Shown here: piece by piece, positions 17,166 to 63,510 of the stretch
Position numbering within the stretch: position 1 is the stretch's first letter
How the letters are laid out: every line of letters starts with the position of its first letter
Assembly (NCBI GenBank): GCA_022606425.2
Contig: JAHDVF020000502.1
Coordinates: 186,001-250,000 of the forward strand
Source: Lepidostoma basale
Taxonomy: Eukaryota; Arthropoda; Insecta; Trichoptera; Lepidostomatidae
Reading direction: 5' to 3'
DNA: 64,000 bases
Position numbers and translations under genes: made by a program
Notes under the pieces: model-generated
What the model saw: only the letters and a program-made list of their open reading frames with translations
The model's database searches: none
Told to the model about the DNA's origin: nothing

Positions 17166-18480
17166 CTTTAAGTTCCCGCTGTTAACATATCTTGGAAAGT
17201 AGTAGGAATAAAACGTCTGGGATGGCGAAAAAATCAAGCATAACAAAACGAATTAATTATAAAAGTTGTCCGTATATTTTACGTGAAATGATAATTAAAT
17301 AATAATAAACTTTATGAAATATATAGTGAAGATTTGTTGAATAGTGAGTACCTTGAAATGATTATAAACCATACCCTGGGAACTATTTAACATTAGCGGT
17401 TTTTCCTGCTAACTAACTACACGTAATCTTTGAAAGTTTGTAGAAGTAAAGGAAGTTTCTTGGATAATGAAGACGGTTAATGAAATAACAATATTAACAT
17501 AGTTTAGATTTGTTATTTAATGTTGTAGAATAATTAAATTTTTTTTTTATGCATTAAATTACTATTTTTTACCCTTTTGAGTTTATTTTTCTTGACAGCT
17601 TTCTTAGGTTTTATACCTCCATCACCTAGAGAGTGATTTAAACTCGTTTAATTACTCTTCCGACGATGAATGTGTAAAACCTTTGAAACATCTAGAAAAA
17701 TATAAACTAAAAAGTGATGAAAAAAAACAGTGTTCAATTTATAAAAAAATCAACATTATGTTTAAGTTTTAAGTTGCTCAAAAATTAACTAAGGTTAGTA
17801 AAATAGAAAGCTTCTTTTTACACAAAAAAGTAGCTTTATTTCAATCTAACTATTTGTAAAATTTTGTTTCATTTATTTATTTGAATATGGTTGAAAACTC
17901 AACTTAATAAAATGATTTCAATCATTCAGAATATCTACATGGAATTGTTGTTTATTTTATAATAAGAAGTATCTTGTACAATTGTCATGTTATTTCATTT
18001 ATTACATTTTTGAAAAATATCAAAGCAACTTAATATGTTGTAATGAAACTACATGTATATAAAAACACAGATAAAAATGTTTCTATTTATTTTTTAGATT
18101 ACGTTTCGCGAAGAAAATGTTCATATTATGTAAGCAAATTCAAAATAAGAACACTGTGGGAGCGTTAAAAGAAATACCAAATATACATATTTTTTTTTTT
18201 TTTCATTTTTTATTGAGTTATTATATTTATTTATTCATTTGGAGAAACAAACAGTAATGACAGTACATAAAAAAAACAAAGAAACAATAGAATAAGGCCA
18301 ATTACAAGCTACCACACGTATACATGATAATATGAGTTAACAATACGTACTAGTGAGTCGAATTTGAAGTTAAACTATAATAGATTCAAGCGAAAGTAAG
18401 TAATATTTAAGAGAGTTGCATAAAACATACACACATATACATAGGAGATACACACATATTCACGAATAATATAATACATA
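17166..18480. other. No gene recognised apart from one hammerhead-like relic
   Basis: AT-rich. Within it, 17590-17760 resembles the family B hammerhead element (see 17654-17700). The stretch at 18195-18400 looks like the poly(T)-bounded 3' UTR of a decayed retroelement but cannot be placed. Confidence 0.4.
17654..17700 (+). ncRNA. Hammerhead-like motif B4 (degenerate)
   Basis: CCGACGA box, extra U, a weak GAAUG/CCUUU stem II, GAAAC, then AUCUA in place of the cleavage triplet. It is followed by AAAAAGTGATGAAAAAAAAC, the family downstream module. Predicted inactive. Confidence 0.4.
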
Positions 18481-18489
18481 CACATAAAT

Positions 18490-19025
18490 ATACACACGAA
18501 ACAATTTCGAGAAAGAAGCCGACCGAAGAATTCAGTTGGGTTGGGCGGCTTTTGGAAAATTGCGTAATGTTCTCACTTCCAAAATACCACAATGCCTCAA
18601 GACTAAAGTCTTCAACCAGTGCGTCTTGCCAGTCATGACGTACGGAGCCGAGACGTGGACACTTACAAAAGGTCTAGTCTACAGGTTCAATGTCGCCTAG
18701 CGTGCCATGAAAAGAGCCATGCTTGGAATAACCTTGAGGGAATAAGGTGACTGAGGTGGCTTTGCGGATAGGCGAGCTGAAGTAGCGGTGGGCTGGCCAT
18801 ATCTGTCGGAGAACCGACAACCGATGGGGAAGACGGGTTCTGGAGTGGAGACCGCGTACAGGATTCTACAGAGTTGGACGTCCCCCTGCCTGCTGGACCG
18901 ACGATCTGAAGAGGATTGCTGGACATGGATGGATGGGAGCGGCAATGGATAGGGGGCGTGGCGTGCTTTGGGAGAGGCCTACGTTCAGCAGTGGATGACA
19001 GACGGCTGATGATGATGATGATGAC
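18490..19025 (+). mobile_element. LINE-C 3' fragment
   Basis: It reads KTKVFNQCVLPVMTYGAETW and RAMKRAMLGITLRE with in-frame stops, then frameshifted PGRPPARWTDDL-like text. It ends with AGTGGATGACAGACGG and a (GAT)n tail at 19006-19022. The VLPVMTYGAETW block is the typical post-RT C-terminus of RTE-like LINEs. Dead copy. Confidence 0.8.
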
Positions 19026-19079
19026 ATACAAATACATACATCTATACATTATTTGATATATTAAAGAAAATATAGGCCC

Positions 19080-19475
19080 CGGCATTCTCTAGAATCATTT
19101 GCTACTTTCCCCGGTCCATCGCCCGCTTTCTCCAGTTTGTAACACTAATTGCCCTAAGGTCACCTTCCACACCATCCATCCACCTTAGTTTTGGTCTTCC
19201 CATATTTCGTTTTCATCTGGTCGCGTATTGATAATATTTCTTGTAATTCGGTCTTCTTCCATTCGTTGGAGATATCCGAACTATCTTAGGCGATGTATTT
19301 TTTATAAATTTCACTATATTGGGTTCATTGTAAAGACTTTCTAGCTCCTGGTTATACCTAACTCTTCACACTCCACTTCCACAGAGAGGCCCAAAGATTT
19401 TCCTCAACACCTTCCTTTCGGAGACCAGCGACGCATTTTTGTCCCCTTTACCCAACACTCCGCACCATATTATTA
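19080..19475 (-). mobile_element. LINE fragment (family H)
   Basis: The minus-strand translation gives RKVLRKIFGPLCGSG, then RISPTNGRRP-like and MGRPKLRWMDGVEGDLRAIS. This GRPxLRWxDGVEDDL box is common in R1/CR1-like LINE C-termini (family knowledge). It contains stops and is 5'-truncated. Confidence 0.65.
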
Positions 19476-19611
19476 TTGTATTAGCCTCAGTAAGGTTTTA
19501 TGCAGTAATAATTTGATGTTTCTTGTCAGATTTGTCAGATTTTTGATGTCCGTTGTCTAAAATAACATTTATTTGCCACGTTTGTTCTCATTTTGATATT
19601 AATACTAACTA

Positions 19612-19770
19612 AACAGTCCATTGTTTTGGCCGAAACACTATGATACTTCAACATTATTACTGTTAACATTTATAACACTGTTATAATATCACAATTTATT
19701 TTTATTCACTGAGAATGTCACGACAGGTGTTTCGCCAACCGATGTTGGCATCATCAGGTGATACAAAAAA
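19612..19770 (-). repeat. Hammerhead-type family A element
   Basis: The module CAGTCCATTGTTTTGGCCGA to CACTATGATACTTCAACATT lies about 100 bp from the ribozyme motif. The same arrangement occurs at 38797 and 47935, and the module alone at 40286. Non-coding. Confidence 0.65.
19715..19764 (-). ncRNA. Hammerhead ribozyme-like motif A2 (complete core)
   Basis: Minus strand, 19764 to 19715: stem I strand GUAUCAC; CUGAUGA box (19757-19751); one extra U (19750); stem II GCCAAC/GUUGGC, 6 perfect pairs with an AUCG loop; GAAA (19733-19730); stem III of 3 pairs with a 2-nt loop; cleavage triplet ending at C19722; stem I strand GUGACAU. Stem I gives four pairs, one mismatch and two more. Hammerheads with stem III this short occur in Penelope-like elements and retrozymes. 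The only departure from the consensus core is the extra U. Activity is inferred, not shown. Confidence 0.75.
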
Positions 19771-20069
19771 CTGTTTTTTTGACATTATGATAAATTTTAA
19801 CAGTACTATATTAACAATATTGCTGCTAGTTTACCACTGAGTCCAAATATTAGAACGATTCAACTCTTTTTATCTTGTAGGTACCTGCGGTGAATGATTA
19901 CTGGACGATTTCTGATGTTAACTGGGCCTTTTGGATGCGATAATATATTTTGTCTTGTGGGTATTTCATTAAAGTCCCATTCTATTAGCAGCATTTTTAA
20001 TGTCTCTAAACCCTTTTTTGACATCATTGGACGTTGTTTTAATAAATAAAGTTACTCTCTTTTTTGTTT

Positions 20070-21188: not shown

Positions 21189-21746
21189 ATGATGGCTACA
21201 TCTTCTCTACGCCAACCGCCTCGTTACGATCCTAGATCAGGGATATCGTGTCCGACGTCTTTTCCGGAATCCTTTAAGGAATTTTTCACGACGTTGAATG
21301 AAGATGAAGACGGGGCAGATTTACTAGCTACGATGCTGGAAGACAAGTTAATACCCCGTTGCTCCGATACGAGCAGCGAATCTGGACAGAGCAGAGACTA
21401 CGAAGCAATGAGGAAAACATCTTGTAGAAGAGTCATGTCTGCTAGAACGTTCCAGAGGAGAGCTTCAGAGATCCACTGCAGATCCAGGCACAGGATAAGC
21501 TGTTCGCAGGCCTTCCAAGCAGGTGAGCGTGATGTCAAAGACAGGAACCAGAGGAACACCTCCCCTGGCGGGTCTCCCGAGAGAGTCAGGAGGAGATCTT
21601 CCTCTCTGGCTGTGAATAGAGCACCCCCGGACATAAAGAGGTTTCTCCAGGCTGAGCCTCCTCGCACAGAGGCTAGAAGTCCAGCCCATTCGCCAGCGAG
21701 ATCACCGAAGCCAAGAGCGAGAACTGCTTCCATGCCACTTCAAAGG
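21189..21746 (+). CDS. Host gene coding exon, N-terminal, product unknown
   Basis: From ATG 21189 (AAAAATGATGG context; a second ATG follows directly) the frame runs 186 codons to 21746, where CAAAGG|GTGAGT is a strong splice donor, phase 0. The start of the predicted protein is MMATSSLRQPPRYDPRSG. It has an acidic segment (TTLNEDEDGADLLATMLEDK, about residues 41-60), then a basic Ser/Arg/Pro-rich tail with SPxR/SPxH repeats (SPAHSPARSPKP), typical of disordered, phosphorylated regions. There is no signal peptide, membrane segment or enzyme motif. GC content is clearly above the flanks and codon use is balanced, unlike the nearby relics. I do not recognise the gene. The next exon is not identified in the window. 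Confidence 0.65.
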
Positions 21747-22205
21747 GTGAGTCAGAATAAAGATTTTCATACATTCTTATATTATAAAGTTTTAGTAAGA
21801 ATATGGTATAGATTTTTATACGTACTTTGATTACAAAGGGTGAGTCAGAATTAAGATTTTTATACATTTCCTTATTATAAAGTTTGAGTAGGTATATGGC
21901 ATAGATTTTTATACATACTTTGATTACAAAGGGAGAGTGAGAATAAAGATTTTTATAGGTACATTCTTATATTATAAAGTTTGAGTAAGAATATGGTACA
22001 GATTTTTATACTTTCTTTGATTACAAAGAGTGAGTCAGAATAAAGATTTTTATACATTCTTATATTATAAAGTTTAAGTAAGAATATGCCATAGATTTTA
22101 ATGCATATTTTCATTACAAAGGGTGAGTCAGAATAAAGATTTATATACATTCTTTCATTACAAAGGGTGATTCAGAATAAAGATTTTTATGCGTTCATAT
22201 ATTTT
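21741..22205 (+). repeat. ~93-bp tandem repeat spanning the splice donor
   Basis: The word CAAAGGGTGAGTCAGAATAA recurs, with small changes, at 21741, 21834, 21927, 22024, 22117 and 22161. The spacings are 93, 93, 97, 93 and 44 bp. The intervening unit contains ATTTTTATACATTCTTATAT. The first copy is the exon end plus its 5' splice site. Copies at 21834, 22024 and 22117 keep GTGAGT, while those at 21927 and 22161 are altered. Confidence 0.85.
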
Positions 22206-22400
22206 TTAGATAAACTTAACGCTGTGAAATTCCTTAATGAATTTTTTTTATGAATTAAAACGCTGTTATTCCACTTTTTTGAAACGTTTATATCATTCTC
22301 CCGATGGTGAAGGTGTAATGTTAACGAAACATGTCGAGAAAAAAAATTCAAAAGTGGTAAAATCAGTGTTTTATTTCATAAGAAATTCGCCATTCATGTA
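22206..22400 (+). repeat. Hammerhead-type family B element, copy 1
   Basis: It shares TTTTTTATGAATTAAAACGC, CCACTTTTTTGAAACG and the downstream AAAAGTGGTAAAATCAGTG module with 37095-37870. Non-coding. Confidence 0.65.
22296..22340 (+). ncRNA. Hammerhead-like motif B1
   Basis: Stem I UUCUC/GAGAA, 5 perfect pairs across the motif; CCGAUGG box (canonical CUGANGA); GAAAC box; AU loop; GUC triplet. Stem II is eroded (GAAGG faces GUUAAC). Predicted inactive, but the conserved stem I supports the assignment. Confidence 0.55.
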
Positions 22401-23700: not shown

Positions 23701-23703
23701 GGC

Positions 23704-23790: not shown

Positions 23791-23861
23791 TGCTATTTTC
23801 TTTGATCGAAAACAGTTTATCTTCTGTTTTGTGTGATTTGGGTAAAACCGTGTAATTTCTC

Positions 23862-23912
23862 CTTCTCGACCGACGTTTCGGAGATCGTTGCAGTCTCCAT
23901 CTTCAGGGTAAT
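23862..23912 (-). ncRNA. Hammerhead ribozyme-like motif I1 (complete core)
   Basis: Minus strand: CUGAAGA box (23906-23900); extra U; stem II GGAGA/UCUCC, 5 perfect pairs with a 9-nt loop; GAAA (23879-23876); then CGUC, so stem III is only AC/GU with no loop and would need a dimer. Stem I has three pairs (ACC/GGU). It forms a divergent pair with I2 at 23950. Confidence 0.65.
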
Positions 23913-23949
23913 GCGATGGTGGTAAATTTATTACTTATCATTACCACCA

Positions 23950-24003
23950 CCACATTACCCTGAAGATGGAGACTGCAATGATCTCCGAAACCTTGGTTGA
24001 GAA
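23950..24003 (+). ncRNA. Hammerhead-like motif I2
   Basis: CUGAAGA box (23960-23966), extra U, stem II GGAGA/UCUCC intact, GAAAC present. The cleavage triplet is changed (CUUG instead of GUC). It is an inverted partner of I1; the arms extend outward to GAGAAGGAGAAAT and its complement. Confidence 0.6.
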
Positions 24004-24078
24004 GGAGAAATCGCACGGTTTTACCCAAAATCACACAAAACATATTGCTGCCAACCGTGAAAATCTACGCAATTAGTT

Positions 24079-24698: not shown

Positions 24699-25767
24699 TT
24701 CTTCTTCTTCTTCTTCTTTTGATAGATCTGACGATCTGTGACACAGAAATCATATCTCGTCGGATGATGAGATCCAGCTGTCCCTCCATCTCTTAGGCGG
24801 TCTTCCAGGTGGGCGGTGTCCGGAAGGGATTTCATAGTCGGCTGTATATGCGAGTCTGTCACCATCCATTCGGGCTACATGGTCCCTCCAGTATCTTCTT
24901 TTGGATCTACTCCACTGAACGATATCCTCTATTTCGCAGGTTTTTCTTATGTCTGCGTTGCGGACACGATCTCGGAGGGTTTTTCCAGTAATTGATCTTA
25001 GGACCTTCATCTCCGATGTTCTTAGTAGTCCCTTGGTTCGCACAGTGTCAGCCCGCGTCTCTACAGCGTACGTCATGATGGGTCGCACGCATGTTTTGTA
25101 GATTCTGATCTTGCTGTCGATACGCATGTTCTTGTTTTTCCAGACCAGATTCTTCAGGCATCCTGACACGGCAGAGGCTTTACTGACTTGTTCACGTACT
25201 TCGGTATAAAGGTCACTTTGGCTGCAGATCTCCACTCCCAAATACCTGAAACTCATCACCTGCTCCACAGGTATATCATCAACAGTCAGTTTACATCTTG
25301 CAGGTTGCCTAGATATAGTGAGACTTTTTGTTTTGTTGACTGATATAGCCATATTTAGCCTTTGGGATACTGTGTGAAATTTGTACAACATTCTTTGCAG
25401 GTCATCTTCAGACTCTGCTATTAATGCGGCATCGTCCGCATAGCAAATGACATTCACAGTTTTACTGCCCATTTTATAACCTAGTCCCAGGCCAGCTACC
25501 TCTTCTATAATTTCGTCCATAATAAGATTGAACAGAAAGGGGCTCAAACTATCTCCCTGTCTTATACCATTGCTTGTAGGAATTTCCCTAGACAGTTCAT
25601 TGTCAACCTTAATTTTCGTTTTGCAATTGGTATATAGATCTTGGACAGTCTTTATCAATGTATTGGATATTCCTCCTTCCTGTAATTTTCTTACAATATC
25701 TCTTAACAACACCCTGTCAAATGCCTTAGTCAGATCGACAAAACATATATAGGCTCCTTTATTACTA
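24699..25767 (-). mobile_element. LINE-B, 5'-truncated, youngest copy
   Basis: Minus-strand insertion of 1069 bp with a (GAA)n tail (24699-24716 on the plus strand reads as TTC repeats) and a perfect 11-bp TSD, landed in a SINE. 5' truncation is the usual outcome of target-primed reverse transcription. The endonuclease and the first part of the reverse transcriptase are missing. Confidence 0.85.
24750..25766 (-). CDS. LINE-B reverse transcriptase, C-terminal part, open frame
   Basis: An uninterrupted frame of about 338 codons that enters from the 5' truncation point, so there is no true start. It begins SNKGAYICFVDLTKAFDRVL (the catalytic Asp block), continues GIRQGDSLSPFLFNLIMDEI (B motif) and CYADDAALIAES (YADD catalytic block, codons 25442-25431). 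Then come the thumb (MSFRYLGVEICSQSDLYTEV) and the post-RT region (IYKTCVRPIMTYAVETRA, YWRDHVARMDGDR, GRPPKRWRDSW), and a stop. This matches the endonuclease/reverse-transcriptase ORF of RTE-like LINEs (family knowledge). The intact frame points to a fairly recent insertion. It cannot retrotranspose by itself. Confidence 0.9.
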   Translation of the reverse strand, partial: SNKGAYICFVDLTKAFDRVLLRDIVRKLQEGGISNTLIKTVQDLYTNCKTKIKVDNELSREIPTSNGIRQGDSLSPFLFNLIMDEIIEEVAGLGLGYKMGSKTVNVICYADDAALIAESEDDLQRMLYKFHTVSQRLNMAISVNKTKSLTISRQPARCKLTVDDIPVEQVMSFRYLGVEICSQSDLYTEVREQVSKASAVSGCLKNLVWKNKNMRIDSKIRIYKTCVRPIMTYAVETRADTVRTKGLLRTSEMKVLRSITGKTLRDRVRNADIRKTCEIEDIVQWSRSKRRYWRDHVARMDGDRLAYTADYEIPSGHRPPGRPPKRWRDSWISSSDEI

Positions 25768-25879
25768 CGTTTGAACACAATTACTGCAAACAATTTGTTA
25801 TTTTTTATTATATTTTGATTCTCGTGACATGTGATAGGTAGCTAATCTATCGCCATTTTAATGTCTTGTAATTTTTATT

Positions 25880-27444: not shown

Positions 27445-27566
27445 ATAAATGAGGTGTCTAACCCCAATCAAATATAATTAATACAAATGAAAACTTTTGC
27501 CTTATTAAAGGCTCACTTTATTTTGTGGAAATGATATGTTTTGCCTTACAAAGACATTATAAAATG
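27445..27566 (-). repeat. Family F module with degenerate hammerhead-like motif F2
   Basis: It matches 2757-2880 and 46955-47090 (TTAATACAAATGAAAAC, TTTTGTGGAAATGATATG). The motif at about 27529-27566 (minus) keeps a GCC/GGC-like hairpin, but the CUGANGA box and G of GAAA are lost. Confidence 0.45.
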
Positions 27567-27767: not shown

Positions 27768-28740
27768 TTACTTACTTATTAAAATGCCGTTTTGCACAGA
27801 AGGGTGGGCAGAGATGATGGACCGCCAAACTTCTCTGTTTCGATGTACCACTCGAGTTTCCTCTTCATTCACACATCGTAAAACGCAAGCTCGTCGAATA
27901 GGGCCGCCTTCTAGTAATATATTAATTTGGTCGTTCTAGGCTTCTTTTTCCATTCACACTGCTTGTATGCAATTTTTAACCATTATTCACTCATCTTTTA
28001 TTTTTTATATGTCTAAACCACACACCATTCATAACATTGGTGTTCTTCTACCGACCCTTATGTATGGAAGCGAAGCATGGAACTGGCAAAATAAAGATAA
28101 AAGTAGAATAAATGCAGTAGAAATGAGATCTCTTAGACTAATGTGTGGATACTCTGTGTATGATAGAGTGTCGAATGAAAATATAAGAAGTGTATGCGGT
28201 GCGAATGATGGTGTCATGAACAAATAATGAAAGGATCATTAAGATGGTTTGGACATATGGAAAGAATGAATGAATAAAGAATGGAAAAAAATATATATGT
28301 AAATGATGTAAATGGAATCAGAAATAGAAGAAGACCGAGGAAAACGTGGCACGATCAAATTAATCAAATATTGAATGTCGGCCATGTGAGGAGTCAGAGA
28401 AATCGACGAGCGTGCATGACACGATGTATGATTGTTGAGGAAGCGAGAGAAATATGTCAGGAAAGAAAAGTGTGGCAGTCCATTATTTCTGCCTACCCCT
28501 TCGGGGTATTCCCGATGGTTAGTTAGTTAGTTAAACCACACATGTGACAATTTTCAAATTTTATGTATGATGCAATCATCTGTTTTACATTTCTTCATTA
28601 TTTCGTTCGTTGTACTATCATACATCGTTTTCTTGCACATTATTTATACTAATCTGATTTTTCCAGCTTCCAAGCTTCACTTCCATAAATAAGGGTTGGC
28701 ACTAGAACTCCATTATACACTGCTAGCTTTGCTTTAGTGC
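27768..28740 (-). mobile_element. LINE-A, old copy split by a younger LINE-A
   Basis: Part 1 is 27768-28013 (degenerate tail AACTAATTTACTTACTTATT, then GCCGTTTTGCACAGAAGGGT). Part 2 is 28543-28740, which reaches the YGSEAWKLEKSD-like region (plus TTCCAAGCTTCACTTCCATA). Between them lies the plus-strand copy 28025-28531. Confidence 0.8.
28025..28531 (+). mobile_element. LINE-A, young 3' fragment with 11-bp TSD
   Basis: It reads LLPTLMYGSEAWNWQNKDKS, RINAVEMRSLRLMCGYSVYD, then GSLRWFGHMERM after one shift, IRNRRRPRKTWHDQINQILN, VRSQRNRRACMTRC and the tail GGTTAGTTAGTTAGTT. TSD taaaccacaca at 28014-28024 and 28532-28542. This is a clear reference copy for the LINE-A 3' end. Confidence 0.9.
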
Positions 28741-33675: not shown

Positions 33676-34160
33676 TTACCATTGTATAAATTATATTTTA
33701 TCTGTACTCAATATAAGCCTCAAATATTAATATTGTTTTTAATGTCTGTTGAGATTTAGTGTTACCTTATGTTAATGAACTTTACCGATATTAAAATACA
33801 TTTATATAAAGGGGTCAACTATATATAAAGGGGTCAACCATAGACGCAGAAGATGTTTTTTTTCTTAAAGATTAAGAAGAGATTTCCTGATTATCCTAGT
33901 ATGTAAAATTATTATCACAACCTTCCTAGCATCAATTTTAATTATATCATCATGTTGCGATAAGTTTCTCACCAATGTAAGCATAAGATTACTAACAAAT
34001 ACTAACAAACCGCCATGTTACTAAGAATTCCACTAACATGCTATTTTATGTAGTTGTCACGATACAAGCCACGCCTAGTGTGACAACTACAGTCCATACT
34101 TTTTGTATCGAAATATTTTTTTTTATAATGAGTTTAAACGATATTAATATTTCATTAATT
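33676..34160. other. No gene recognised
   Basis: Unassigned AT-rich sequence with a small direct repeat TATAAAGGGGTCAAC at 33806 and 33824. Confidence 0.4.
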
Positions 34161-34167
34161 GTTTATT

Positions 34168-34212
34168 AATTCACTGGAGAAGGGAAGTCTGTATTCCGAA
34201 ACATGTTTGTGA
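34168..34212 (+). ncRNA. Hammerhead-like motif D1
   Basis: CUGGAGA box (A6 to G), extra A, GGAA/UUCC stem II, GAAAC, AU loop, GUU triplet, with two to three stem I pairs. The downstream CACAACACAAAGTGATGGCG module follows at about 34275. Confidence 0.5.
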
Positions 34213-34423
34213 AAAGTGCAAAAAAAGTGTTGTGAAAATACAACGTTTTCAAAAAGTAATTCAAATGTGAATCCACAACACAAAGTGATGGCGAATTCAT
34301 AAAAATAAATTATCTACTCATGGAAATGCAATATTAATATATTTTTCTTTGATTGAACAATAGTTTTCACTTTGTACAATAACTCTTAATTTAAAATACA
34401 AATTAAATTAAAAATTGAATATG

Positions 34424-34466
34424 ACCACGAACATGTTTCGGGATTCAGAAGCCCTTCATCAATATT
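34424..34466 (-). ncRNA. Hammerhead-like motif D2
   Basis: Minus strand: UUGAUGA box (C3 to U), extra A, GGG/CCC stem II, GAAAC, AU, GUU. Divergent partner of D3. Confidence 0.55.
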
Positions 34467-34530
34467 TAAACAAAATTTTCATAAAAGTTTTAACAGATGT
34501 TTAAATATTTATTTTGTACATACAAAATTT

Positions 34531-34579
34531 AACTACACTGATAAAGGGCATCTGTGTCCCGAAACATGTTTGTGTTTAA
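34531..34579 (+). ncRNA. Hammerhead-like motif D3
   Basis: Stem I AACUACA/UGUGUUU pairs at six of seven positions. CUGAUAA box (G8 to A), extra A, GGG/CCC stem II, GAAAC, AU, GUU. One core change predicts weak or no activity. Confidence 0.6.
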
Positions 34580-35214
34580 ACTTAATTTTTACTTAAAATT
34601 ATATTTTTAATGAAGTGTTATTTCACAAAACAAAAAATATTTTTTAATTACGAATTGGCAACGCAATTATAGTCGAAAAACGCTTATATGGTTATGAATA
34701 AATAAATGAATACCTTTATAAATAGGTTTAATATAATAGTGTGATTTAATAACAGATTCTTGTGATGGTTCTGCAATACGTCATTCAATATAGAGTTTTC
34801 AATTTCTATGTTTTGAAAGCTAAAATTACTATGAAAATTTCAATTTTACCCTCCAGTGATTTTTTAAACGGTTTTATTACTCATACATAAATATTTTACT
34901 CGTGGTAATAAGAGATTATTCAATTCCGATTTCAGATTAAAATTCAGGGCCACTAGCTACCCTTCAGAGCGAGTATTCCCCCATGTACTTTTACCCTATC
35001 TCGTCACATTCCCCGTATACTTCTAATACACACCCCGCTCTAATGCTATTTACATATCCTTCAGAAAATTGCCCTATGACCCTCGCGTAACCTCTGAAGG
35101 AAAGATATGTGAATAAACTCGAATCCAGGATTTCGCCGTGGTCAGAAGTTAAGGGGATAAATCCTTTGACAATGTGTTGTTGAAGAATGAATGGACGTCT
35201 ATTTTACTCAAAGA
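34580..35214. other. No gene recognised
   Basis: Unassigned AT-rich sequence. 34950-35110 is somewhat GC-richer without a frame. Confidence 0.45.
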
Positions 35215-36925: not shown

Positions 36926-37186
36926 ATATATTGGTATTTACAGCACATTTAAAGCATTTTCGACGAATGATCGCAATACAACGGGTATCTCTTACCTCAT
37001 ATGGCAATTCATTACATAATTTAAATCTTCTATAGAAAACACATTTCTTAGTTAAATTTCTTTATATAATGTGTTTTTATTAAATTAGAAATATATAATA
37101 CATCTACAACACAAAGTAGGGCGAACACAGAAGAAACTTTTTTAAAAATTAAAACACTGTTTTTTTCTACTTTAGAGTTTTTTTTT

Positions 37187-37229
37187 TTCTCGAGATGTTT
37201 CGAAGGCTTACACTTTCATCATCGAAAGA
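37187..37229 (-). ncRNA. Hammerhead-like motif B2
   Basis: Minus strand: UCGAUGA box, extra U, GAAAG/CCUUC stem II with one mismatch, GAAAC, AU, CUC in place of GUC. Degenerate. Confidence 0.5.
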
Positions 37230-37250
37230 ACGATATAAACTATATTTATC

Positions 37251-37297
37251 GTTTTCCCGATGATGATGGTGTAAGCCTTCGAAACATGTCGAGAAAA
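37251..37297 (+). ncRNA. Hammerhead-like motif B3
   Basis: Stem I UUUUC/GAGAA, 5 pairs including a G-U; CCGAUGA box (U4 to C, 37257-37263); extra U; stem II GAUGG/CCUUC with a U-U mismatch; GAAAC; AU; GUC ending at 37290. One core change. Divergent partner of B2. Confidence 0.6.
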
Positions 37298-37332
37298 ATA
37301 AACTCAAAAGTGGAAAAAAAACAGTGTTTTAA

Positions 37333-38760: not shown

Positions 38761-38893
38761 ATGCGAGAAATAAAATAAATAAATATGTTAAAATAAAAAC
38801 AGTCCGTTGTTTTGGCCGAAACACTATGAAACCTTAACATTTTAAACTGTTTAATTAAATTACTTTGTTTTATGTATCACAATTATATTTTAT

Positions 38894-38943
38894 TCTACGC
38901 GACAGCTGTTTCGTCAACCTATGTTGACATCATCAGGTGTTAC
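38894..38943 (-). ncRNA. Hammerhead ribozyme-like motif A3 (complete core)
   Basis: Minus strand: CUGAUGA (38936-38930), extra U (38929), stem II GUCAAC/GUUGAC 6 pairs with an AUAG loop, GAAA (38912-38909), 3-pair stem III, GUC ending at 38901. Compared with A2, stem II shows compensatory changes (GCC/GGC to GUC/GAC), good evidence that the helix was selected. Stem I pairs only partly. Confidence 0.7.
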
Positions 38944-38955
38944 AATAATATTATT

Positions 38956-39003
38956 GTAACACCTGATGGTGTCAACATAGGTTGACGAAACAGTTGTCGC
39001 GTA
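38956..39003 (+). ncRNA. Hammerhead-like motif A4
   Basis: CUGAUGG box (A9 to G), extra U, stem II GUCAAC/GUUGAC intact, GAAAC, GUC ending at 38998. One core change. Divergent partner of A3. Confidence 0.6.
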
Positions 39004-39414
39004 AAATAAAATACAATTGTGATACACAAAACAAAGTTATTTAATTTAAAAGTTTAAAATACAACTGTAATTGCGCCTTGGAATAATTGATTCAACAAAA
39101 TAGGGGCACAGTAGATGGGTACGTAACATATGAACGAAGGATTTAGTGATTCAAAATATCACTGGATGAAATGCAAGAAAAAATGCGGGAATACGTAGTA
39201 CTTTGGTTGCACTTTAGAGTAATTGAATTTATCAAACAGGGCACATAAATTATTAATTATTGCATGTATTAATGTACTTAGTTGGGCCCACAAAACGACG
39301 AAAATAAATTATAATTATATTTGAGTAAGAATGCGCTTTGTTTACGCAATAGTTGAACAAAGCTTCAGAAATGGGAATAGGTATATAACATACATACGAA
39401 TAAGAATTAATACC

Positions 39415-40285: not shown

Positions 40286-40500
40286 TAGAAGTCCATTGAT
40301 TTGGCCAAAATACTGTGATATTTCAACATTATAAACTGTTATGTATCATATTTTTTTAATTAAAAATTGAATAAAATAATAATAAACGAAACATGTCATT
40401 CCCATATAATATATTATAATTTCTGGAAAACTGATGTTTTCATTCATATTAATTATTTGTTATGGAGTTTTACATCATTGTTCAAGAATCAATAAATAAA
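40286..40500. repeat. Scrambled family A and family F modules
   Basis: AGTCCATTGATTTGGCCAAA (family A upstream module) is followed at about 40391 by CGAAACATGTCATTCCCAT (3' half of family F) and the F outer module near 40455. No complete ribozyme motif; a mosaic of two families. Confidence 0.5.
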
Positions 40501-40548
40501 CAAAACTATGTTTTTTTTATATAACTACATCCAAATTTGTCTTTATTT

Positions 40549-40596
40549 CGACAGCGACCGTTTTTGCCAGGCTCGCTGGCATCGACAGACTGGTGA
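40549..40596 (-). ncRNA. Hammerhead-like motif K
   Basis: Minus strand: stem I CAGU/GCUG 4 pairs (one G-U); CUGUCGA box (A6 to U); extra U; stem II GCCAG/CUGGC 5 pairs with a CGAGC loop; AAAA instead of GAAA; GUC-like triplet. A single-copy family here. Confidence 0.5.
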
Positions 40597-40885: not shown

Positions 40886-41035
40886 TCCTATTTTTTATTT
40901 TTCGCGACAGCTGTTTCTTCAACCTATGTTGACATCATTAGGTGATAAAATAATCTATCAACTGTTAAATTGAATTTTCGAGATTTATTTCATATCATAA
41001 TATTCGTATAAACAGCTGTCGCGAAAAATAATAAT
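40886..41035. repeat. Hammerhead-type family A palindrome, decayed (motif A5)
   Basis: The minus motif at 40903-40948 has CUAAUGA (G5 to A), stem II GUCAAC/GUUGAA, GAAAC and GUC. The plus arm keeps only AAACAGCTGTCGCGAAAAAT at 41010. Same divergent arrangement as 38797. Confidence 0.6.
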
Positions 41036-41636
41036 AATATATAAATTGTGAAACAAAAACAAAGTTTTTTTACTTAACGGTTTATTCTTACATAATATAC
41101 TAAGAACATTACACAATTTGTTCTCAAGGATTTAAGTGTGGCAATAACTACTTATTTCATTTGAAAGGTTTGCATAATACTCGTATATAATATAATAATT
41201 TAAACTTTTGTGCTACTTGTTACGAGTAAAAGAGAAGAGAAGCGAAGAAAGCTAAAACAAAGCATCGAGAAAATGTTATTGTTAATACATTAATAAATTA
41301 AAAGTTATTCAAATTACTAGATGAAAAAAAAACAGAAATAATACCATATAATATAACGTAAATATGAAATATATTAAAACATTAAAAGAAAACTTATGCA
41401 TAGTCACAATGTCGTCGTACACATATAATATAAAAAGCCAAAAACCAGGATGTCATCAAAAAAGAGCAAGAGAATATTTTGGATACAAGTGAGCGAGAGA
41501 GAAATACTTCGATGCTTTCTGAAAGTAATTCGAAATGCACACTATGCGCATGCCCGAGAACGTTTCTGGATTATTTTTAATTTTGTTCTGATTATAGAAA
41601 AGAAAATGAGAACAATTTGGTATCATTAATTGAAAT
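41036..41636. other. No gene recognised
   Basis: Unassigned AT-rich sequence. Confidence 0.45.
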
Positions 41637-47090: not shown

Positions 47091-47410
47091 TTCATCAAGT
47101 GTTCACAATTTGTTTTTCGAATAATTTTAAAATAATTAAAAATATATATAAATATAGGTATATCTTGCGATGCTGGTAGATTCAATTAAAACATATTATA
47201 TGTAGTAAATATACATGATAACTGATATATCGTTAAGTTTACGCGAATCTCTTTTGAGAATATCTTAGCAATGCGAAAAACGTCATTCACATGAAATATA
47301 ATAGAACTTTCTTCTATATACGCCATACTTTGTATTGTTATGATGATTTATTTCTCTTTTTCTATTTTATATACTTTGTATGTGCAACACTTATATTAAA
47401 AAAATAAAAT

Positions 47411-47456
47411 TACAAAGACATGTTTCGGACAAACAGTCCTTCTTCAGTAAAGATAC
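47411..47456 (-). ncRNA. Hammerhead ribozyme-like motif C1 (complete core)
   Basis: Minus strand: CUGAAGA (47447-47441), extra A, stem II GGAC/GUCC with a UGUUU loop, GAAA (47426-47423), C, AU, GUC ending at 47417. Stem I pairs poorly in this copy. The outer module (ATACTTTGTATGTGCAACAC) lies at about 47370. Confidence 0.65.
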
Positions 47457-47518
47457 ATTTTTTTAAATATTATAAAATTGTTTATATGATCTGACAGATG
47501 TTATAAAGATTTATTTTG

Positions 47519-47775: not shown

Positions 47776-48024
47776 ATTTAGCGAAGGCACCTATGCCTGG
47801 AGTTTTCCAATAACTATTCTTCAATTAACCTAATGAAGCTTTTGAAAAACAATGTGGTTTCAAATATAACAACTATACCTACTGTTATGCGGTGAGAACA
47901 GAGTATTTTTATTTTCATAAATTAAGTCCATTGTTTTGGCCGAAACACTATGATACTTCAACATTATTACTGTTAAAATTGAAAACACTGTTATAATATC
48001 ACAATTTCTTTTTATTCAATGAGA

Positions 48025-48074
48025 GTGTCGCGACAGCTGTTTCGCCAATTGATATTGGCATTATCAGGTGTTAC
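48025..48074 (-). ncRNA. Hammerhead-like motif A6
   Basis: Minus strand: CUGAUAA (G8 to A), extra U, stem II GCCAAU/AUUGGC 6 pairs (compensatory relative to A2), GAAAC, AGCU, GUC. One core change. Confidence 0.6.
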
Positions 48075-48172
48075 AATAAACTACCGCATCATCAGGTGTT
48101 ACAATAAACTACCGCATCATCAGGTGTTACAATAAACTACCGCATCATCAGGTGTTACAATAAACTAACAGT
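48061..48172 (-). repeat. 28-bp tandem repeat of the hammerhead 5' strand
   Basis: Four units start at 48061, 48089, 48117 and 48145, unit TCATCAGGTGTTACAATAAA plus CTACCGCA. Each unit contains the complement of the CUGAUGA box and its stem I strand. The first unit has TTATCAG. Confidence 0.9.
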
Positions 48173-48177
48173 TTATT

Positions 48178-48229
48178 ATAACACCTGATGATGCCAACAT
48201 CGGTTGGCAAAACAGCTGTCGCGACACTC
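48178..48229 (+). ncRNA. Hammerhead-like motif A7
   Basis: CUGAUGA (48185-48191), extra U, stem II GCCAAC/GUUGGC with an AUCG loop, AAAAC (G12 to A), AGCU, GUC ending at 48220. One core change. Divergent partner of A6. Confidence 0.6.
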
Positions 48230-48300
48230 TCAGTGAATAAAAATAAATTGTGATATTATAACAGTGTTTTAAATTTTAACGGTAATTCGTGAATTTATAA

Positions 48301-48932: not shown

Positions 48933-49021
48933 ACCAAAACAATTCACTTATACGCGAAATATCTCCAAATTTACAGGAGCACCACATGAACCAAAACAAA
49001 TTTTCAAAATCAGAATTTATA

Positions 49022-49590: not shown

Positions 49591-50080
49591 AGTATTAAAA
49601 CAAAAAAGGGACGCCTATGCAAACATCAAACATAATAATGTCAACTCGAGTTTCATGATGGATTTTGTCAGAAGGGTCAATATCGGGAATCAATTGTATC
49701 AGATTTGACATTATAACCAAAGTTAATTACAAATTTTGTGGCCCGGAAATTCGAGCTTTCAAACGGTAATCTATTTTAATTGGGTACCGTGAGGAAATAT
49801 GACATTGTAAAAGGATTAATGTAATTTCTTAACACGTTTCAATAAAATTAAGGATGGTTATTTGGTACGTAATAGGGGTTTTCATCTAATATACCGATCA
49901 AAGGCATCACAACGCCTACATAAAACAAATATTTCCGGATGTAATTCGTTTTTCATATCAAGTCAAAGTACAGGGTGGCGCGTGGCAGATACATGGATTT
50001 GAAAATAAAAAATACAGATTGTTAAAAAAAATGAATTTTTTTGTTGTTTTCTGATTAATTAACAAGGGAAATTTGATTTG
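49591..50080. other. No gene recognised
   Basis: Unassigned AT-rich sequence. Confidence 0.4.
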
Positions 50081-50127
50081 TTTTTTTCCTTTTTTATATA
50101 CTTTGTATATACAACACAATTAAAATT

Positions 50128-50174
50128 ACATATCAGACATGTTTCAGACAACCAGTCCTTCTTCAGTGATACAT
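50128..50174 (-). ncRNA. Hammerhead ribozyme-like motif C2 (complete core, best stem I)
   Basis: Minus strand: stem I AUGUAUCA/UGAUAUGU, 8 pairs including two G-U; CUGAAGA (50166-50160); extra A (50159); stem II GGAC/GUCU closing with a G-U, UGGUU loop; GAAA (50145-50142); AC/GU stem III with an AU loop; GUC ending at C50136. All elements of a type I hammerhead are present except for the extra A. Confidence 0.75.
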
Positions 50175-50463
50175 ATTATAAAGATACATATTTAAAATAT
50201 TATGAATTTTTTTACAAATAAATTTTGACAGATGTTACAAATATTTATAATTGTTATTTATTGTTTCGGCATTCACTTTGTGGTAGGACATGATTAAATT
50301 ATAAATAAAACACTTGTTTTTTACCACTTGAGTTGCTTTCCATGTTCCCGTTATCTCGAACCCCTACCCCCTCACTTACCCCCGCCACCAATAACTCATA
50401 ATCCCCCTTACCTCTATCAGTACAGATAATTGTTATATGTAATATTAATGCTTTAGTTTATAT

Positions 50464-50511
50464 TGAAACCTATAGATGGAAGCATCTTTAGCTTCCGAAA
50501 CTAGTCGTTTA
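50464..50511 (+). ncRNA. Hammerhead-like motif J
   Basis: Stem I AAAC/GUUU 4 pairs; CUAUAGA box (two changes from CUGANGA); extra U; stem II GGAAGC/GCUUCC 6 perfect pairs; GAAAC; UA; GUC ending at 50506. The downstream AAGTGGTAAAAAACAAG module follows. Confidence 0.55.
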
Positions 50512-50668
50512 AAATATAATATTCAAGTGGTAAAAAACAAGTATTTTATTTATAATTTAAGATTTATAAATCTTAATAAACAGATGTTATAAATCTTTAT
50601 AACATCTGTCAAAACTGATCATATTTGTAAACAATTTTATAATATTTATAAAATGTATTTTTATATTA

Positions 50669-50711
50669 TGTATCACTGAAGAAAGACTGCTCCGAAACTT
50701 GTCTGATATGT
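50669..50711 (+). ncRNA. Hammerhead-like motif C3
   Basis: Stem I GUAUCA/UGAUAU 6 pairs; CUGAAGA (50676-50682); GAAAC; GUC ending at 50703. Stem II is shortened (AGAC-UGC-UCC) and probably does not close. Divergent partner of C2. Confidence 0.55.
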
Positions 50712-50795
50712 AATTTTAATAGTGGTGTATATACAAAGTATATAAAAAAAGAAAAAGACAAATAAAACATCCACAACACAAAGTATGGCGAATTT

Positions 50796-54140: not shown

Positions 54141-54810
54141 TACAAGTAGATATGAGATCTCTTAGACGAATGTGTGGAAAATCTGTGTATATTAGAGCAT
54201 CGAATAAAAATATAAGATGTGAATGCAGTGCGAATAAAAGTGTTATAAACAAAATAAATAATTATCATTTAGATGATATGGATTCATGGAAAGAATGAAC
54301 GAAGAAAAAATGGTAAAACAAGTATATGACAACAATGTAAATGGAAGTAGAAATAGCGGATACGTGGTACGATCAAATATATCAAATATTGAATGTCGGC
54401 TACATGACGAGTCGGAGAAATCGACGTGCGTGCTTGACAAGTTGTATGAATGTTGAAGACGCGAGAGAAGTGTGTCAAGAAAGAACAGTGTGGCGGTTAA
54501 TTATTTTTGACTACCCCTTCGGGGAGACGGCGTGATGTTATTTAGTAAGTTGGTTAGTAACGAGTAATATCAAAGTAGATGATGAAAATATGCTTTTGAA
54601 TTTCGAATAGTTTACGCTGTAACATGCAATGTTCGGTTTAAAGGTAGCGTGATATTCCATAAATTTAGTACAGAAATGGCATTAGCTGTATTTTCGCACC
54701 ACAGATGGCTTCACATTGACTTGTGTAGTAAGGTATTAGAATATTGCTTGTTACAAAGTTGGAAGCAATTCCCATATTAATAAAATTATTCGGAATAATA
54801 TATTAAATAC

Positions 54811-60108: not shown

Positions 60109-60267
60109 CCGTACTGGCAACTTTGATCTTAAATATCTTCTCTTTGGTTGGGAATCCCAAATTCAAATTTATACAGCTATTTACTCAAGTATTTGTGTTT
60201 CGAAAATTATAATTAATTTGTTTTTTCCTCAATTGTTTTTTTTTCTTTGCGTCACTCAGTTTACAAA

Positions 60268-61287
60268 ATGGAATACTTGAAATATCGCGTTATTTACGAG
60301 TACGAGTTCCACCGTGGCACCAGTGCTGCAGAAACGGCTCAAAGGATTAATGATGTGTATGGCGACGGTGCCGCAAAAGAAAACACAGTGCGTTTTTGGT
60401 TCCAACGTTTTCGTTCTGGAAATTTCGACCTGCAGAACAAGCCCCGTGGACGGCCGGAGACCAAAGTTGATAATGAAGAATTGAAGGCTATTGTGGAAGC
60501 GGATCCATCGCAAACCACGTTCGAGTTAGCTGCAGGCTGCGGTGTTAGTGATAAAACTGTTTTAATCCACTTGAAGCATATTGGGAAGGTGAAAAAGCAT
60601 GAAAGGTGGGTACCTTACGAATTGAGTGAAGCAAATCAACAAAAGCGCGTTGACTGCTGCGTTGCATTACTCAACCGGCACAATAATGAAGGGATTTTGA
60701 ATCGAATCATTACGTGTGATGAAAAGTGGATCCTGTATGATAATCGGAAGCGCTCATCGCAATGGCTGAACCCTGCCGAACCAGCCAAACCATGCCCCAA
60801 GCGAAAATTGACTCCAAAAAAGTTACTTGTGAGCGTTTGGTGGACTAATGCTGGTGTCGTTCACTACAGCTTTCTTAAATCTGGCCAGACGATTACGGCA
60901 GATGTCTTTTGTCAGCAACTGCAAACCATGATGGAAAAGCTAGCTGCTAAACAACCGAGACTGGTTAATCGCTCTAGGCCACTGCTGCTTCATGATAACG
61001 CTAGACCACACACTGCACAACAGACGGCTACCAAATTAGAAGAACTTCAATTGGAATGTCTAAGACATCCACCGTACTCTCCGGACCTTGCCCCAACAGA
61101 TTACTATTTTTTTCGAAATTTGAATAACTTCTTGCAAGGGAAAAAATTCAACTCCGATGGGGCAGTCCAAACCGACTTCAAAGATTTTATTGATTCCCGT
61201 CCGAATGGTTTTTTTAGTAAAGGGATCGATGAACTACCTATGAGATGGCAAAAGTGCATAGATAGCAATGGTACATACTTTGATTAA
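60268..61287 (+). CDS. Mariner transposase (DD34D)
   Basis: 339 residues from ATG 60268 (ACAAAATGG context); upstream in-frame codons lack another ATG. It cuts and pastes the element at TA sites in the nucleus. Residues 1-110 form the paired helix-turn-helix region that binds the inverted ends (AAETAQRINDVYG; VRFWFQRFRSGNFDL; GRP hook at 61-63). The WVPYEL linker is at 114-119, a variant of the mariner WVPHEL motif. The catalytic triad is D151 (TCDEKW), D243 (LLHDNARPH) and D278 (YSPDLAPTD), with exactly 34 residues between the last two. The C-terminus WQKCIDSNGTYFD is typical. No stop or frameshift; length is near the family's ~345. Confidence 0.95.
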   Translation: MEYLKYRVIYEYEFHRGTSAAETAQRINDVYGDGAAKENTVRFWFQRFRSGNFDLQNKPRGRPETKVDNEELKAIVEADPSQTTFELAAGCGVSDKTVLIHLKHIGKVKKHERWVPYELSEANQQKRVDCCVALLNRHNNEGILNRIITCDEKWILYDNRKRSSQWLNPAEPAKPCPKRKLTPKKLLVSVWWTNAGVVHYSFLKSGQTITADVFCQQLQTMMEKLAAKQPRLVNRSRPLLLHDNARPHTAQQTATKLEELQLECLRHPPYSPDLAPTDYYFFRNLNNFLQGKKFNSDGAVQTDFKDFIDSRPNGFFSKGIDELPMRWQKCIDSNGTYFD

Positions 61288-61334
61288 ATAATTATATTAT
61301 ATTTAAAAAAAATCAACTTTATGTTCCTCCCGTA

Positions 61335-61365
61335 CAAAACGCCAATTTCATATGTAAGGACCTAA
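61335..61365 (-). repeat. Mariner right inverted repeat
   Basis: Exact inverted copy of 60078-60108, followed by TA (61366-61367). Confidence 0.95.
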
Positions 61366-61544
61366 TATAAAAAATATAAAAAAAAAAAATTTAAAAATAT
61401 AAAAAATTGTAATTTAGAAAAAACGAACATTTGAAAAGACATAATTTATATAGAAATTAATAAATGATTAATTTGCATTTGATTGGGAATGGGACCTTGG
61501 GAGATTAAATGTAGACAGAGTATTTAAGGAGAAAGGATTAAAAG

Positions 61545-61640
61545 GAGGACGTGAATGGTGCACTTAAAGTTGTCATCGCAAACAAAAACCTATCCAAAAA
61601 AGCTAGAATGGCAGTGCACAATGGTGTTCTTCTACCGACT
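61545..61640 (+). mobile_element. LINE-A fragment, head-to-head with the next
   Basis: NGALKVVIANKNLSKKARMA and VHNGVLLPTP on the plus strand, ending where the minus-strand copy begins. The two share the same segment with several differences, so they are different source copies or a diverged inversion. Confidence 0.7.
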
Positions 61641-62105
61641 CCTAGAACTCCATTGTGAACGGCCGTTTTCGCTTTCATTGATAAATTCTTGTTTCCAATA
61701 ACTATTTTTAAAGCTCCATTCACTTTGTTACCCGCACCAACCCTTCTTTCGACGTCACTATCCGTTCGGGCATCTGTTGTGAACATGCTACCTAAATACA
61801 CAAATTCCCTCACCTGTTCCAATATCTCTTCGTTCACACTTATATTACAAACTGTCATTTGCTCTTCCCTTTCGAAAACCATCACCTTTGACTTTCCGAC
61901 ATTCATCATTAAATCATTTGACTTGCATACCTCATACATTCTCGACACCAAGACTTGTAATTCGTTCGCACTATCCGCAACGAGAACGGCATCGTCTGCG
62001 TAAAGCAGACAGTTTACAGACAGATCAATCATCTTAGCACCAGCATTTATACATTTAAGTTCTTTCATACACTTGTCCATATACAGATTGAACAACCATG
62101 GAGAA
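61641..62105 (-). mobile_element. LINE-A reverse-transcriptase fragment, open frame
   Basis: The minus strand reads FNLYMDKCMKELKCINAGAK, NCLLYADDAVLVADSANELQ (YADD codons 62002-61991), YEVCKSNDLMMNVGKSKVMV and REFVYLGSMFTTDARTDSDV, then GAGNKVNGALKIVIGNKN. This is the RT palm and thumb of LINE-A, which the terminal fragments elsewhere lack. Open through 62095-61640. Both ends truncated. Confidence 0.85.
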
Positions 62106-62239
62106 AATTTATAACATTTTTAACAAGTTTGTTGTTAATTAAAATAAAAAAATCTTATAAGTATATCTTTACATTAACGGTAACAGTAATATAAATATTT
62201 AGTTTGTAGTTAGACTCGAATAATTCAAGTAAAGTAGAA

Positions 62240-62530
62240 CTAGTAACAATAATCAATAATACTAATAAATTTAGTTAGTTTCTTTATGTTAGTATTGTCT
62301 CGCTTGAAAAGTGGGCACTCTACGTGACATGTCTGCTCTCCTGCCAGTTTGACAAATTCCGAAATTGCGAGCGAACTTTTAAAGGGTTTCTCGAACTTGT
62401 TGCTCGAGGCCACAGAGCCGTGTCCTGCTGAAAGCACTGAAAGCACACAAGAGTCTGTTTTTGTGAGAACTTCGGATGACAAAGGACATAATGTATAAAA
62501 AGTACAAAGAATCCCAAATACATAAGTCAT
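62240..62530 (-). other. Cys-containing open stretch, gene uncertain
   Basis: On the minus strand two overlapping frames are open. One begins MYLGFFVLFIHYVLC (signal-peptide-like) and continues LVCFQCFQQDTAL. The other contains KLAGEQTCHVECPLFKRDN. CFQC-type spacing recalls secreted Ly6-like proteins, but no single frame holds all cysteines and a splice acceptor-like CTTTCAG lies between. GC is above the flanks. It may be a decayed exon or chance. Confidence 0.25.
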
Positions 62531-62784
62531 GTTGGGTAAATAAATATTTGCTTTTTTATATATCCCATTGACTATGTGCCAACTCGAGGAAGTTCTTACA
62601 TTATAAAAGAAAATTAAATTCAGGATGTATTACATACAGGTATATTCAACGATGGGTGTAAATTTATAGTAATTATTTTTTTACAAAAGCAATAGAAGAT
62701 TTGTAGCAACGAGTAACATTTTCAAAATACGAATGAAATTGTCTGTTTTCTAGAAGTTTTTTTACATTTTTTATACAACTTTCA

Positions 62785-62912
62785 GATATTGATTCTCATT
62801 ACATGTGATAGGTCTATCACCATTCTATTGTCATGTGAATTCTACACCAGACGAAATATAGTGTGTGGTGTCGCCAGCAATCGAACCCAGGACCTTTGCC
62901 CAAAGGTCGTCA
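62785..62912 (-). repeat. tRNA-derived SINE, copy 3 (truncated)
   Basis: Minus: CTGGGTTCGATTGCTGGC (B-box) and GAATTCACATGACAATAGAA. The A-box and 3' tail are lost. Confidence 0.65.
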
Positions 62913-63465
62913 ATATTACAACAAATAATTTATCAATCGTATTTTTATTCTCACATTTTACAACAAAATTTTACTAAGTACTAATTTCAGAACAAATATC
63001 ACACCTGTGATTTGCAAACCACTTTGAAATACATACATCGAACATAAAATTGTCATTTAAAATCTGTGTTTTTTTATAAAAACTAAGTAATCTTCAGTCT
63101 CTTCAACTTCCCATTCAATTTTATCCCTATTTCCCACCCCTCGAGTCTACTTATTAATCGTAATAAACAGGGGTGCTTAAATGTTTTAACAAAAACTAAA
63201 TCTTCACAATAATATTTAATAGATTGCATGCTTTCCAAAACACGTTCATAAAATTAAACTCCTTTCCTAAATGCAAAAAAAATTTAACAGTACCTCAAAG
63301 TAATAAGTGTGTCTGATATATGTGGTATTATTACTTTCATATTCGCCAAAACTTTGTGATGCGGATTCATTGGACAATTTTTTTTTAAACTTTGTAAAAA
63401 CTTCATTAAACAATTAAGAAACTAGCATGTTGGGGAAACAGAATAAAAAAAATTGTTAAAATATT
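62913..63465. other. No gene recognised; family D outer module at its end
   Basis: Unassigned AT-rich sequence. CATATTCGCCAAAACTTTGTG at about 63340 is the inverted outer module seen beside families B, C and D. Confidence 0.45.
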
Positions 63466-63510
63466 TGTAACACTGATGATGGGCTTCTGTGTCCGAAACA
63501 TGCTTTTTAA
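63466..63510 (+). ncRNA. Hammerhead-like motif D4
   Basis: CUGAUGA (63473-63479), extra U, stem II GGGC/GUCC 4 pairs with one G-U and a UUCUGU loop, GAAAC (63495-63499), AUGCU in place of AUGUU, so the cleavage triplet is damaged. Core boxes otherwise canonical. Confidence 0.6.

Follow-up and report, generated by a model that had tools for sequence, protein, structure and literature searches.

The window analysed here is a stretch of 64,000 nucleotides of Lepidostoma basale (Insecta; Trichoptera), positions 186,001 to 250,000 of the forward strand of contig JAHDVF020000502.1 (assembly GCA_022606425.2), and it carries numerous hammerhead-ribozyme-like motifs. These are very probably minimal type I hammerheads of Penelope-like elements (PLEs), left as solo insertions of pseudo-long terminal repeats (pLTRs), many of them as head-to-head pairs. 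An earlier note on this DNA had placed the hammerheads in dispersed retroelement repeats and linked them to PLEs, which is still the best reading; however, it had treated the motifs as free-standing in many unrelated families and had missed their architecture, since the copies occupy a fixed place inside solo, often head-to-head PLE-type pLTRs. The hammerhead motif is of a known kind, found here in PLE-type remnants, and what is new is these particular families and copies.

The motifs display the type I order of parts, i.e. CUGANGA and GAAA around stem II, then UH, with an open stem I. They were searched on both strands with a descriptor made of CTGANGA, a set number of inserted bases, a stem II of at least 4 bp including at least two G-C pairs, and GAAA; a stricter class adds C..GTH 3' of GAAA. 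Seven complete cores were found instead of the five previously counted: 19757 (-), 23906 (-), 23960 (+), 38936 (-), 47447 (-), 50166 (-) and 63473 (+). Six of them carry GTH, the copy at 63473 having lost the cleavage triplet despite its complete core. Stem I reaches 8 bp in the 50166 copy and 4 bp in the 19757 copy, and helix III is limited to 1-3 bp or less in the motifs of the window. The motifs do lie where the earlier note had put them, on the minus strand for both 19715-19764 and 50128-50174, and counting along the sequence leads to the same predicted cleavage positions, C19722 and C50136.

The canonical hammerhead spacing is not exactly respected, as all seven complete cores have an extra base before stem II. 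An extra core nucleotide, located between A9 and stem II, also occurs in the hammerhead of CChMVd, which differs from the present motifs in being a viroid of unrelated sequence. The number of inserted bases serves as an internal control on the enrichment of the motif. Indeed, counted with or without GTH, the window holds seven complete cores with one inserted base, none without any, one with two and none with three. Complete cores with one inserted base and GTH number 6 in the window and 0 in 30 dinucleotide shuffles, which yielded a single match when GTH was not required; with one mismatch allowed, the numbers are 11 in the window versus 1 in 12 shuffles (mean 0.08). This excess over shuffles, obtained with exactly one inserted base, indicates that the motifs are real and go beyond chance.

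The covariation previously claimed for the pairing stands for stem II, where it is well supported, but is partial and weak for stem I in family A (see below for the families) and uninformative for stem III, because this stem never varies. Among 13 distinct stem II sequences from 16 motifs, with strands segmented by hand, which favours pairing, the first four pairs are kept in 49 of 52 cases, against a mean of 30.8 after the 3' strands were re-dealt as a control; the value of 49 was reached in 0 of 20,000 such re-deals. Within family A alone, 33 of 36 stem II pairs are kept (mean 29.7, matched by 4 of 720 permutations). In an alignment of seven family A sequences, stem II is 95.2% paired, with two pairs altered on both sides, 67.9% of the stem I cells are paired and stem III is invariant. 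For the three stems together, the percentage paired and the covariation score each lie above 500 of 500 shuffles, whereas the count of pairs changed on both sides is unremarkable (equalled in 107 of 500) and the number of further pair types is low, being attained in 491 of 500. These counts concern the seven family A rows of a 16-motif cross-family alignment that misplaced GAAA, the nine other rows, including the degenerate A copy at 40588, having been dropped.

Self-comparison and reading of the sequence resolved five families, not the 11 or more previously proposed. Family A has a GCCAAC-type stem II (11 stretches including fragments) and family B a GGAGA-type one (2 copies). Family C/D groups GGAC and GGGC types, joined through the copy at 63473 (8 copies plus an orphan tail at 37107). 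Family E has a degenerate core (5 copies) and family Z is worn (8 copies, those at 2841 and 7270 among them). Together they amount to about 34, i.e. 26 stretches or fragments in A to E and 8 degenerate Z copies, most of them damaged and partly placed by eye, which is close to the earlier figure of about 31. The loci are the following, the name of a pair being given in brackets where it is used below.

38801..39060: family A head-to-head pair (A38), motifs 38936 (-) and 38963 (+); left arm tailed (end 38801), right arm tail-less
47925..48286: family A head-to-head pair (A48), motifs 48067 (-) and 48185 (+); left tail end 47925, right arm tail-less; central 28-nt array
19615..19780 (-): family A single copy, complete core CTGATGA-T-GCCAAC/GTTGGC-GAAA-CACCTG-TC; tail end 19615
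40889..41039: family A degenerate head-to-head pair, motif 40941 (-) and 5'-shortened partner at about 40986-41028 (+); no tail seen
8169..8349: family A, motif 8289 (-), degenerate, and partial partner 8304-8344 (+); no visible tail
40290..40588 (-): family A degenerate copy, stem II GCCAG/CTGGC; tail end 40290, tail score 64 in a wider stretch
9005..9135 (+): family A fragment restricted to the 3' part, downstream of the core; diverged tail
23825..24042: family B head-to-head pair (B23), motifs 23906 (-) and 23960 (+); stem II GGAGA/TCTCC, the left copy carrying the minimal GAAACGTC
50072..50792: family C head-to-head pair (C50), motifs 50166 (-, stem I of 8 bp) and 50676 (+, stem II damaged); right tail end about 50792
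47319..47514 (-): family C single copy, motif 47447, complete core; end not fixed
63342..63560: family C/D pair (C63), 63473 (+) and degenerate left partner (-); left tail end 63342
34135..34295 (+): family C/D copy with motif 34174 and one mismatch in the core; tail end 34295, tail score 44
34352..34648: family C/D head-to-head pair (D34), motifs at about 34463 (-) and 34538 (+); no tail seen
37149..37332: family E head-to-head pair (E37), motifs at about 37222 (-) and 37260 (+); degenerate core C-CGATGA
17542..17749: family E degenerate head-to-head pair (E17), near the start of the interval covered by the earlier note
22286..22373 (+): family E copy, left arm truncated; matched by the covariance model R1 (see below)
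2721..2880 (-): family Z degenerate repeat, GAAACATGT..., its worn 5' core placed by eye
40387-40497, 46949-47056, 27459-27557, 8091-8185, 47260-47309, 62726-62770 and the 7270 motif (by eye): other family Z copies

Head-to-head inverted repeats, about 180-720 bp long and with outward-facing motifs, make up eight of these loci and probably a further two; at all 10 two-copy loci, the two motifs are oriented divergently. The self-inverted alignments score 364 for A38, 305 for A48, 301 for B23, 375 for C50, 164 for D34, 218 for E37, 104 for E17 and 80 for C63. The control regions peaked at 76, with a 95% point of 41 (169 kept of 200 drawn, those overlapping a pair being dropped; all of 301 bp, versus 251-801 bp for the tested stretches), so that eight of the ten candidate pairs exceed the control maximum. 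The two decayed family A pairs score 58 (40889..41039), above the 95% point and below the maximum, and 33 (8169..8349), within the control range. The matching arms extend upstream of the core over 10-19 nt in A38, A48, B23 and D34, versus about 150-165 nt in C50, whose arms then give way to an unlike centre of about 190 nt. Neighbouring copies in other orientations lie farther apart, 34174 (+) and 34463 (-) by 289 bp and 40588 (-) and 40941 (-) by 353 bp; they are best read as separate insertions, since each has its own end. One hammerhead-type repeat even lies inside another, the Z repeat 40387-40497 being nested between the motif and the tail of the A copy 40290..40588. The centre of A48 is occupied by a 28-nt unit repeated 3.9 times at 98% identity (48058-48167), which contains the first bases of the hammerhead motif and perhaps results from slippage during cDNA synthesis or later.

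The downstream ends are sharp. In five aligned pairs, the arms stop abruptly 82-112 nt past the core start, and an additional tail of 25-41 nt is found on exactly one arm in 4 of 10 pairs (A38, A48, C50 and C63), on both arms in none. In C50, the right arm is tailed, with an end at about 50792, and the left arm is tail-less; in B23, both arms stop at the same base and carry no A- or C-type tail. Tails were searched with an A probe cut from the left arm of A48 and a C probe cut from the right arm of C50, two of the four tailed pairs thus having supplied the probes, and the control consisted of 600 random stretches that possibly include true tails. The A probe scored 66 on the left and 18 on the right arm of A38, and 22 on the right arm of A48 (control 99% point 30); the C probe scored 32 on the left and 12 on the right arm of C63, and 18 on the left arm of C50 (control 99% point 26). 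All four tailed A copies (19757, 48067, 38936 and 40588) end at ..GGACT after a tail of 38-41 nt, 136-143 nt past the core start, a distance that rises to 299 nt in 40588 with its Z repeat. Measured from end points anchored on patterns picked by eye, identity between them falls from 0.92 over the last 20 bases of the tail to 0.44 over the next 20. The C tail is 25-32 nt long in two pairs; GGCGAA is the point at which the left arm of 63473 and the copies 50676 and 34174 diverge, 117 nt (50676) and 122 nt (34174) past the core start.

In 9 of 10 family A and B copies (7 of 8 A, 2 of 2 B), and also in 63473, the extra base of the core forms an ATG, the other C/D copies having AAG, AAA or GAA at this place. 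The predicted cut lies 30 nt (A) or 29 nt (B) past this ATG and the insertions end 76-137 nt past it, the copy with the Z insert excluded. The frame from the ATG is open over 27 and 36 codons in the two family B copies, beyond the end of the arm.

These features suggest the following scenario, from which we infer how the insertions could have been primed. In a living element, the hammerhead would overlap the start of an open reading frame (ORF), and reverse transcription would begin about 100 nt downstream of the hammerhead, at one of two sites, the cDNA being copied back through the hammerhead into the pLTR. If both strands of the cut target were used as primers (or by self-priming) and if short cDNAs stopped soon past the hammerhead, the product would be a short inverted repeat with outward hammerheads and a tail on the side that had used the distal start site. 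Short cDNAs on both sides of the target cut would produce outward motifs and outward tails by geometry. The one-sided tails, observed in four pairs, fit independent starts on each strand; an early-stopping snap-back copy of a single cDNA would look alike. It is also conceivable, though rather unlikely, that the palindromic doublets move as an element of their own, in which very short PLE RNAs would be primed on both strands of a break and each arm would independently take a start with or without a tail; several PLE families of one genome would then have converged on this palindromic form without an ORF. If so, a single insertion would record two starts of reverse transcription. The transposition mechanism of PLEs is still poorly known, and a genome dense in short, sharply ended head-to-head pLTR pairs would be a natural record of the starts of reverse transcription on each strand; counts of tail combinations would separate two-sided priming from self-priming.

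Several observations weigh against a PLE origin of the motifs. Of the eight family A copies, four have a stop in the frame from the ATG after 3 codons and four after 20-21 codons. A Pfam scan of 20 of the 22 ORFs of at least 110 aa detected neither a PLE reverse transcriptase nor a GIY-YIG domain, the two RVT_1 matches resembling non-LTR elements; this absence of PLE domains in the scanned ORFs gives the copies the appearance of solo pLTR remnants. Stop-free stretches scanned for motifs yielded three YADD (judged by eye to be non-LTR), one YLDD at 30179 (-) and no GIY-YIG. Tails of A or C type are absent from both arms in 6 of 10 pairs (both probes, 20 arms), and B, D and E may carry tails of their own, undetectable with these probes. 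The flanks past the A tail, with their identity of 0.44, are still above random 20-mers (mean 0.27, 95% point 0.45), which blurs the last bases of the tail. Neither is the C end fixed throughout: 47447 (-) and 37107 (+) remain alike for about 45 nt beyond the tail site, perhaps through run-on into the element body or the start of the ORF. A target-site duplication was found at none of the five pairs tested. Finally, scans of viral contigs for the motif gave no matches, and no relatives were obtained from other genomes.

Rfam models and energy folding also speak on that side. A search of the window with Rfam detected no hammerhead family at the gathering score and none among the matches up to E = 10. 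In 101-base stretches, Hammerhead_1 reached 10.6 bits on 19716-19763 (gathering 34, E 9.2) and RAGATH-1 12.6 bits in a scan of two such stretches (gathering 56.3, E 6.3), both at chance level. The Rfam hammerhead models thus miss such minimal forms at gathering thresholds in this window. A covariance model (R1) was built from seven family A seeds, which match by construction, the matches to family E and to partial copies being new; it links families A and E weakly, with 19.8 bits (E 0.0019) at 37249-37298 and 16.5 bits (E 0.02) at the 22286..22373 copy. The three-way junction appeared in the minimum-energy folds of 0 of 4 single motifs, in a calculation that leaves tertiary contacts, dimers and protein unmodelled, and cleavage as a monomer may fail even for a true PLE hammerhead. 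In the literature, PLE hammerheads are reported to cleave as dimers or with the help of a protein of the element. The transcript across A38 (38839-39060) folds into one hairpin (z = -29.4), and paired copies probably cannot form the ribozyme, their arms being predicted to make one long hairpin instead. Whatever their presumed past catalytic activity, most copies are probably inactive now, given their many damaged cores and these paired arms.

Other small elements with hammerheads or inverted repeats have to be weighed against PLE remnants. It is improbable that the motifs belong to non-LTR retrozymes, non-autonomous elements with type I hammerheads that spread as circular RNAs and are mobilised by PLE proteins. 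The type I order of parts and the small size would suit them, and retrozyme-like repeats are known in insects and other invertebrates from the accessible part of PMC7229834. However, metazoan retrozymes are described there and in the accessible part of PMC7761336 as tandem repeats of about 170-400 nt, with a stable helix III in most of those from invertebrates, whereas helix III is here 1-3 bp or less and inverted pairs prevail. No tandem array with a unit of about 170-400 nt carries the motif, the 28-nt array being the sole one of 21 tandem-repeat rows in a motif locus, and the tandem retrozyme was rejected for lack of a unit-size array at any of these loci.

Miniature inverted-repeat transposable elements (MITEs) or foldback DNA transposons, whose terminal inverted repeats would hold a hammerhead-like hairpin by accident, could account for short elements with inverted arms of about 100-260 nt, for the six of ten pairs in which no tail tells the arms apart and for the B arms that stop at the same base. 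They are very improbable: the plan of CTGANGA, one nucleotide, stem II and GAAA is found again in families whose arms gave no match to one another in the self-comparison, and the sole transposase that the ORF scan revealed (60217-61287), a mariner-type one, is not beside any pair. The unequal arm ends in four pairs and the absence of target duplications (0 of 5) led to the rejection of this candidate. That the motifs are chance or microRNA-like hairpins is hardly credible. Rfam microRNA families do match four inverted loci (E 6e-15 to 0.02), every time below the gathering score, but these matches stem from the long palindromes (z = -29 for 38839-39060), and microRNA precursors were rejected on this ground; chance hairpins were rejected by the dinucleotide shuffles, and the stem II exchange test speaks against hairpins of either sort.

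The window also contains features of other kinds. Remnants of reverse transcriptase ORFs with YADD, probably from non-LTR elements, are located at 24750-25841 (-), 61538-62119 (-) and 12403 (+), the first two matching RVT_1. A satellite-like array lies away from the motif loci at 21741-22179, with 4.7 copies of a 93-nt unit (93/190-nt). The mariner-type transposase ORF (+) spans 356 aa from stop to stop and matches Transposase_1, HTH_48 and DDE_3. A dispersed repeat, CCGTCT..CCGAAGGGGTAGGCAGAAA, is present at 1946-2245, 33146-33445, 49001-49300 and 63586-63885, and inverted at 28285-28507 and 54362-54537, its copies being 67-95% alike; one of them starts near the right end of the element with the 63473 motif. 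A tRNA-Gly(CCC)-like gene at 42495-42566 (-) scores 32.4 bits, slightly over the gathering score of 29.

A literature search on hammerheads and insects or Lepidoptera, which covered few subscription papers, returned no report of such an element in an insect, and one on palindromic or solo pLTR forms pointed to PMC3846280. The closest known systems are PLEs. According to the accessible part of PMC3846280, Penelope pLTRs contain the first 12 codons and frequently have an adjacent inverted copy, mostly head to head; their junctions are palindromic, one of the two inverted pLTRs may bear a 31-bp tail, and target duplications measure 8-10 bp or are lacking; the palindromes are interpreted there as self-priming on an antisense template. 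The window copies resemble Pen2a_Av of Adineta vaga (in the same text) and the Anolis element PAc (PMC11167929, as far as accessible) in their head-to-head inverted pLTRs and palindromic junctions. The tail on one arm, 25-41 nt here, is described as 30-40 bp long in Penelope/Poseidon-type PLEs in the sources available. With PAc (PMC11167929), they share a hammerhead that overlaps the ORF start, and with Penelope/Poseidon-type PLEs insertions that end about 100 nt further downstream. RNA 5' ends immediately after the predicted cleavage site went undetected for the Anolis PLE (PMC11167929). They differ from Penelope/Poseidon PLEs in that the window has solo pLTR pairs and singles with no reverse transcriptase/endonuclease ORF among the scanned ORFs, and in target duplications, 8-10 bp in some A. 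vaga copies (PMC3846280, accessible part) and none seen here in five pairs. The metazoan non-LTR retrozymes, as presented in the consulted portion of PMC7229834, share type I hammerheads and small non-autonomous elements with the window but are tandem and mostly have a stable helix III. PLE hammerheads, in the available parts of PMC7761336 and PMC6155905, are minimal type I forms without helix III, dispersed by thousands across animal genomes, and the motifs described here resemble them in the type I order, the near-absent helix III (1-3 bp) and the dispersion of the copies.

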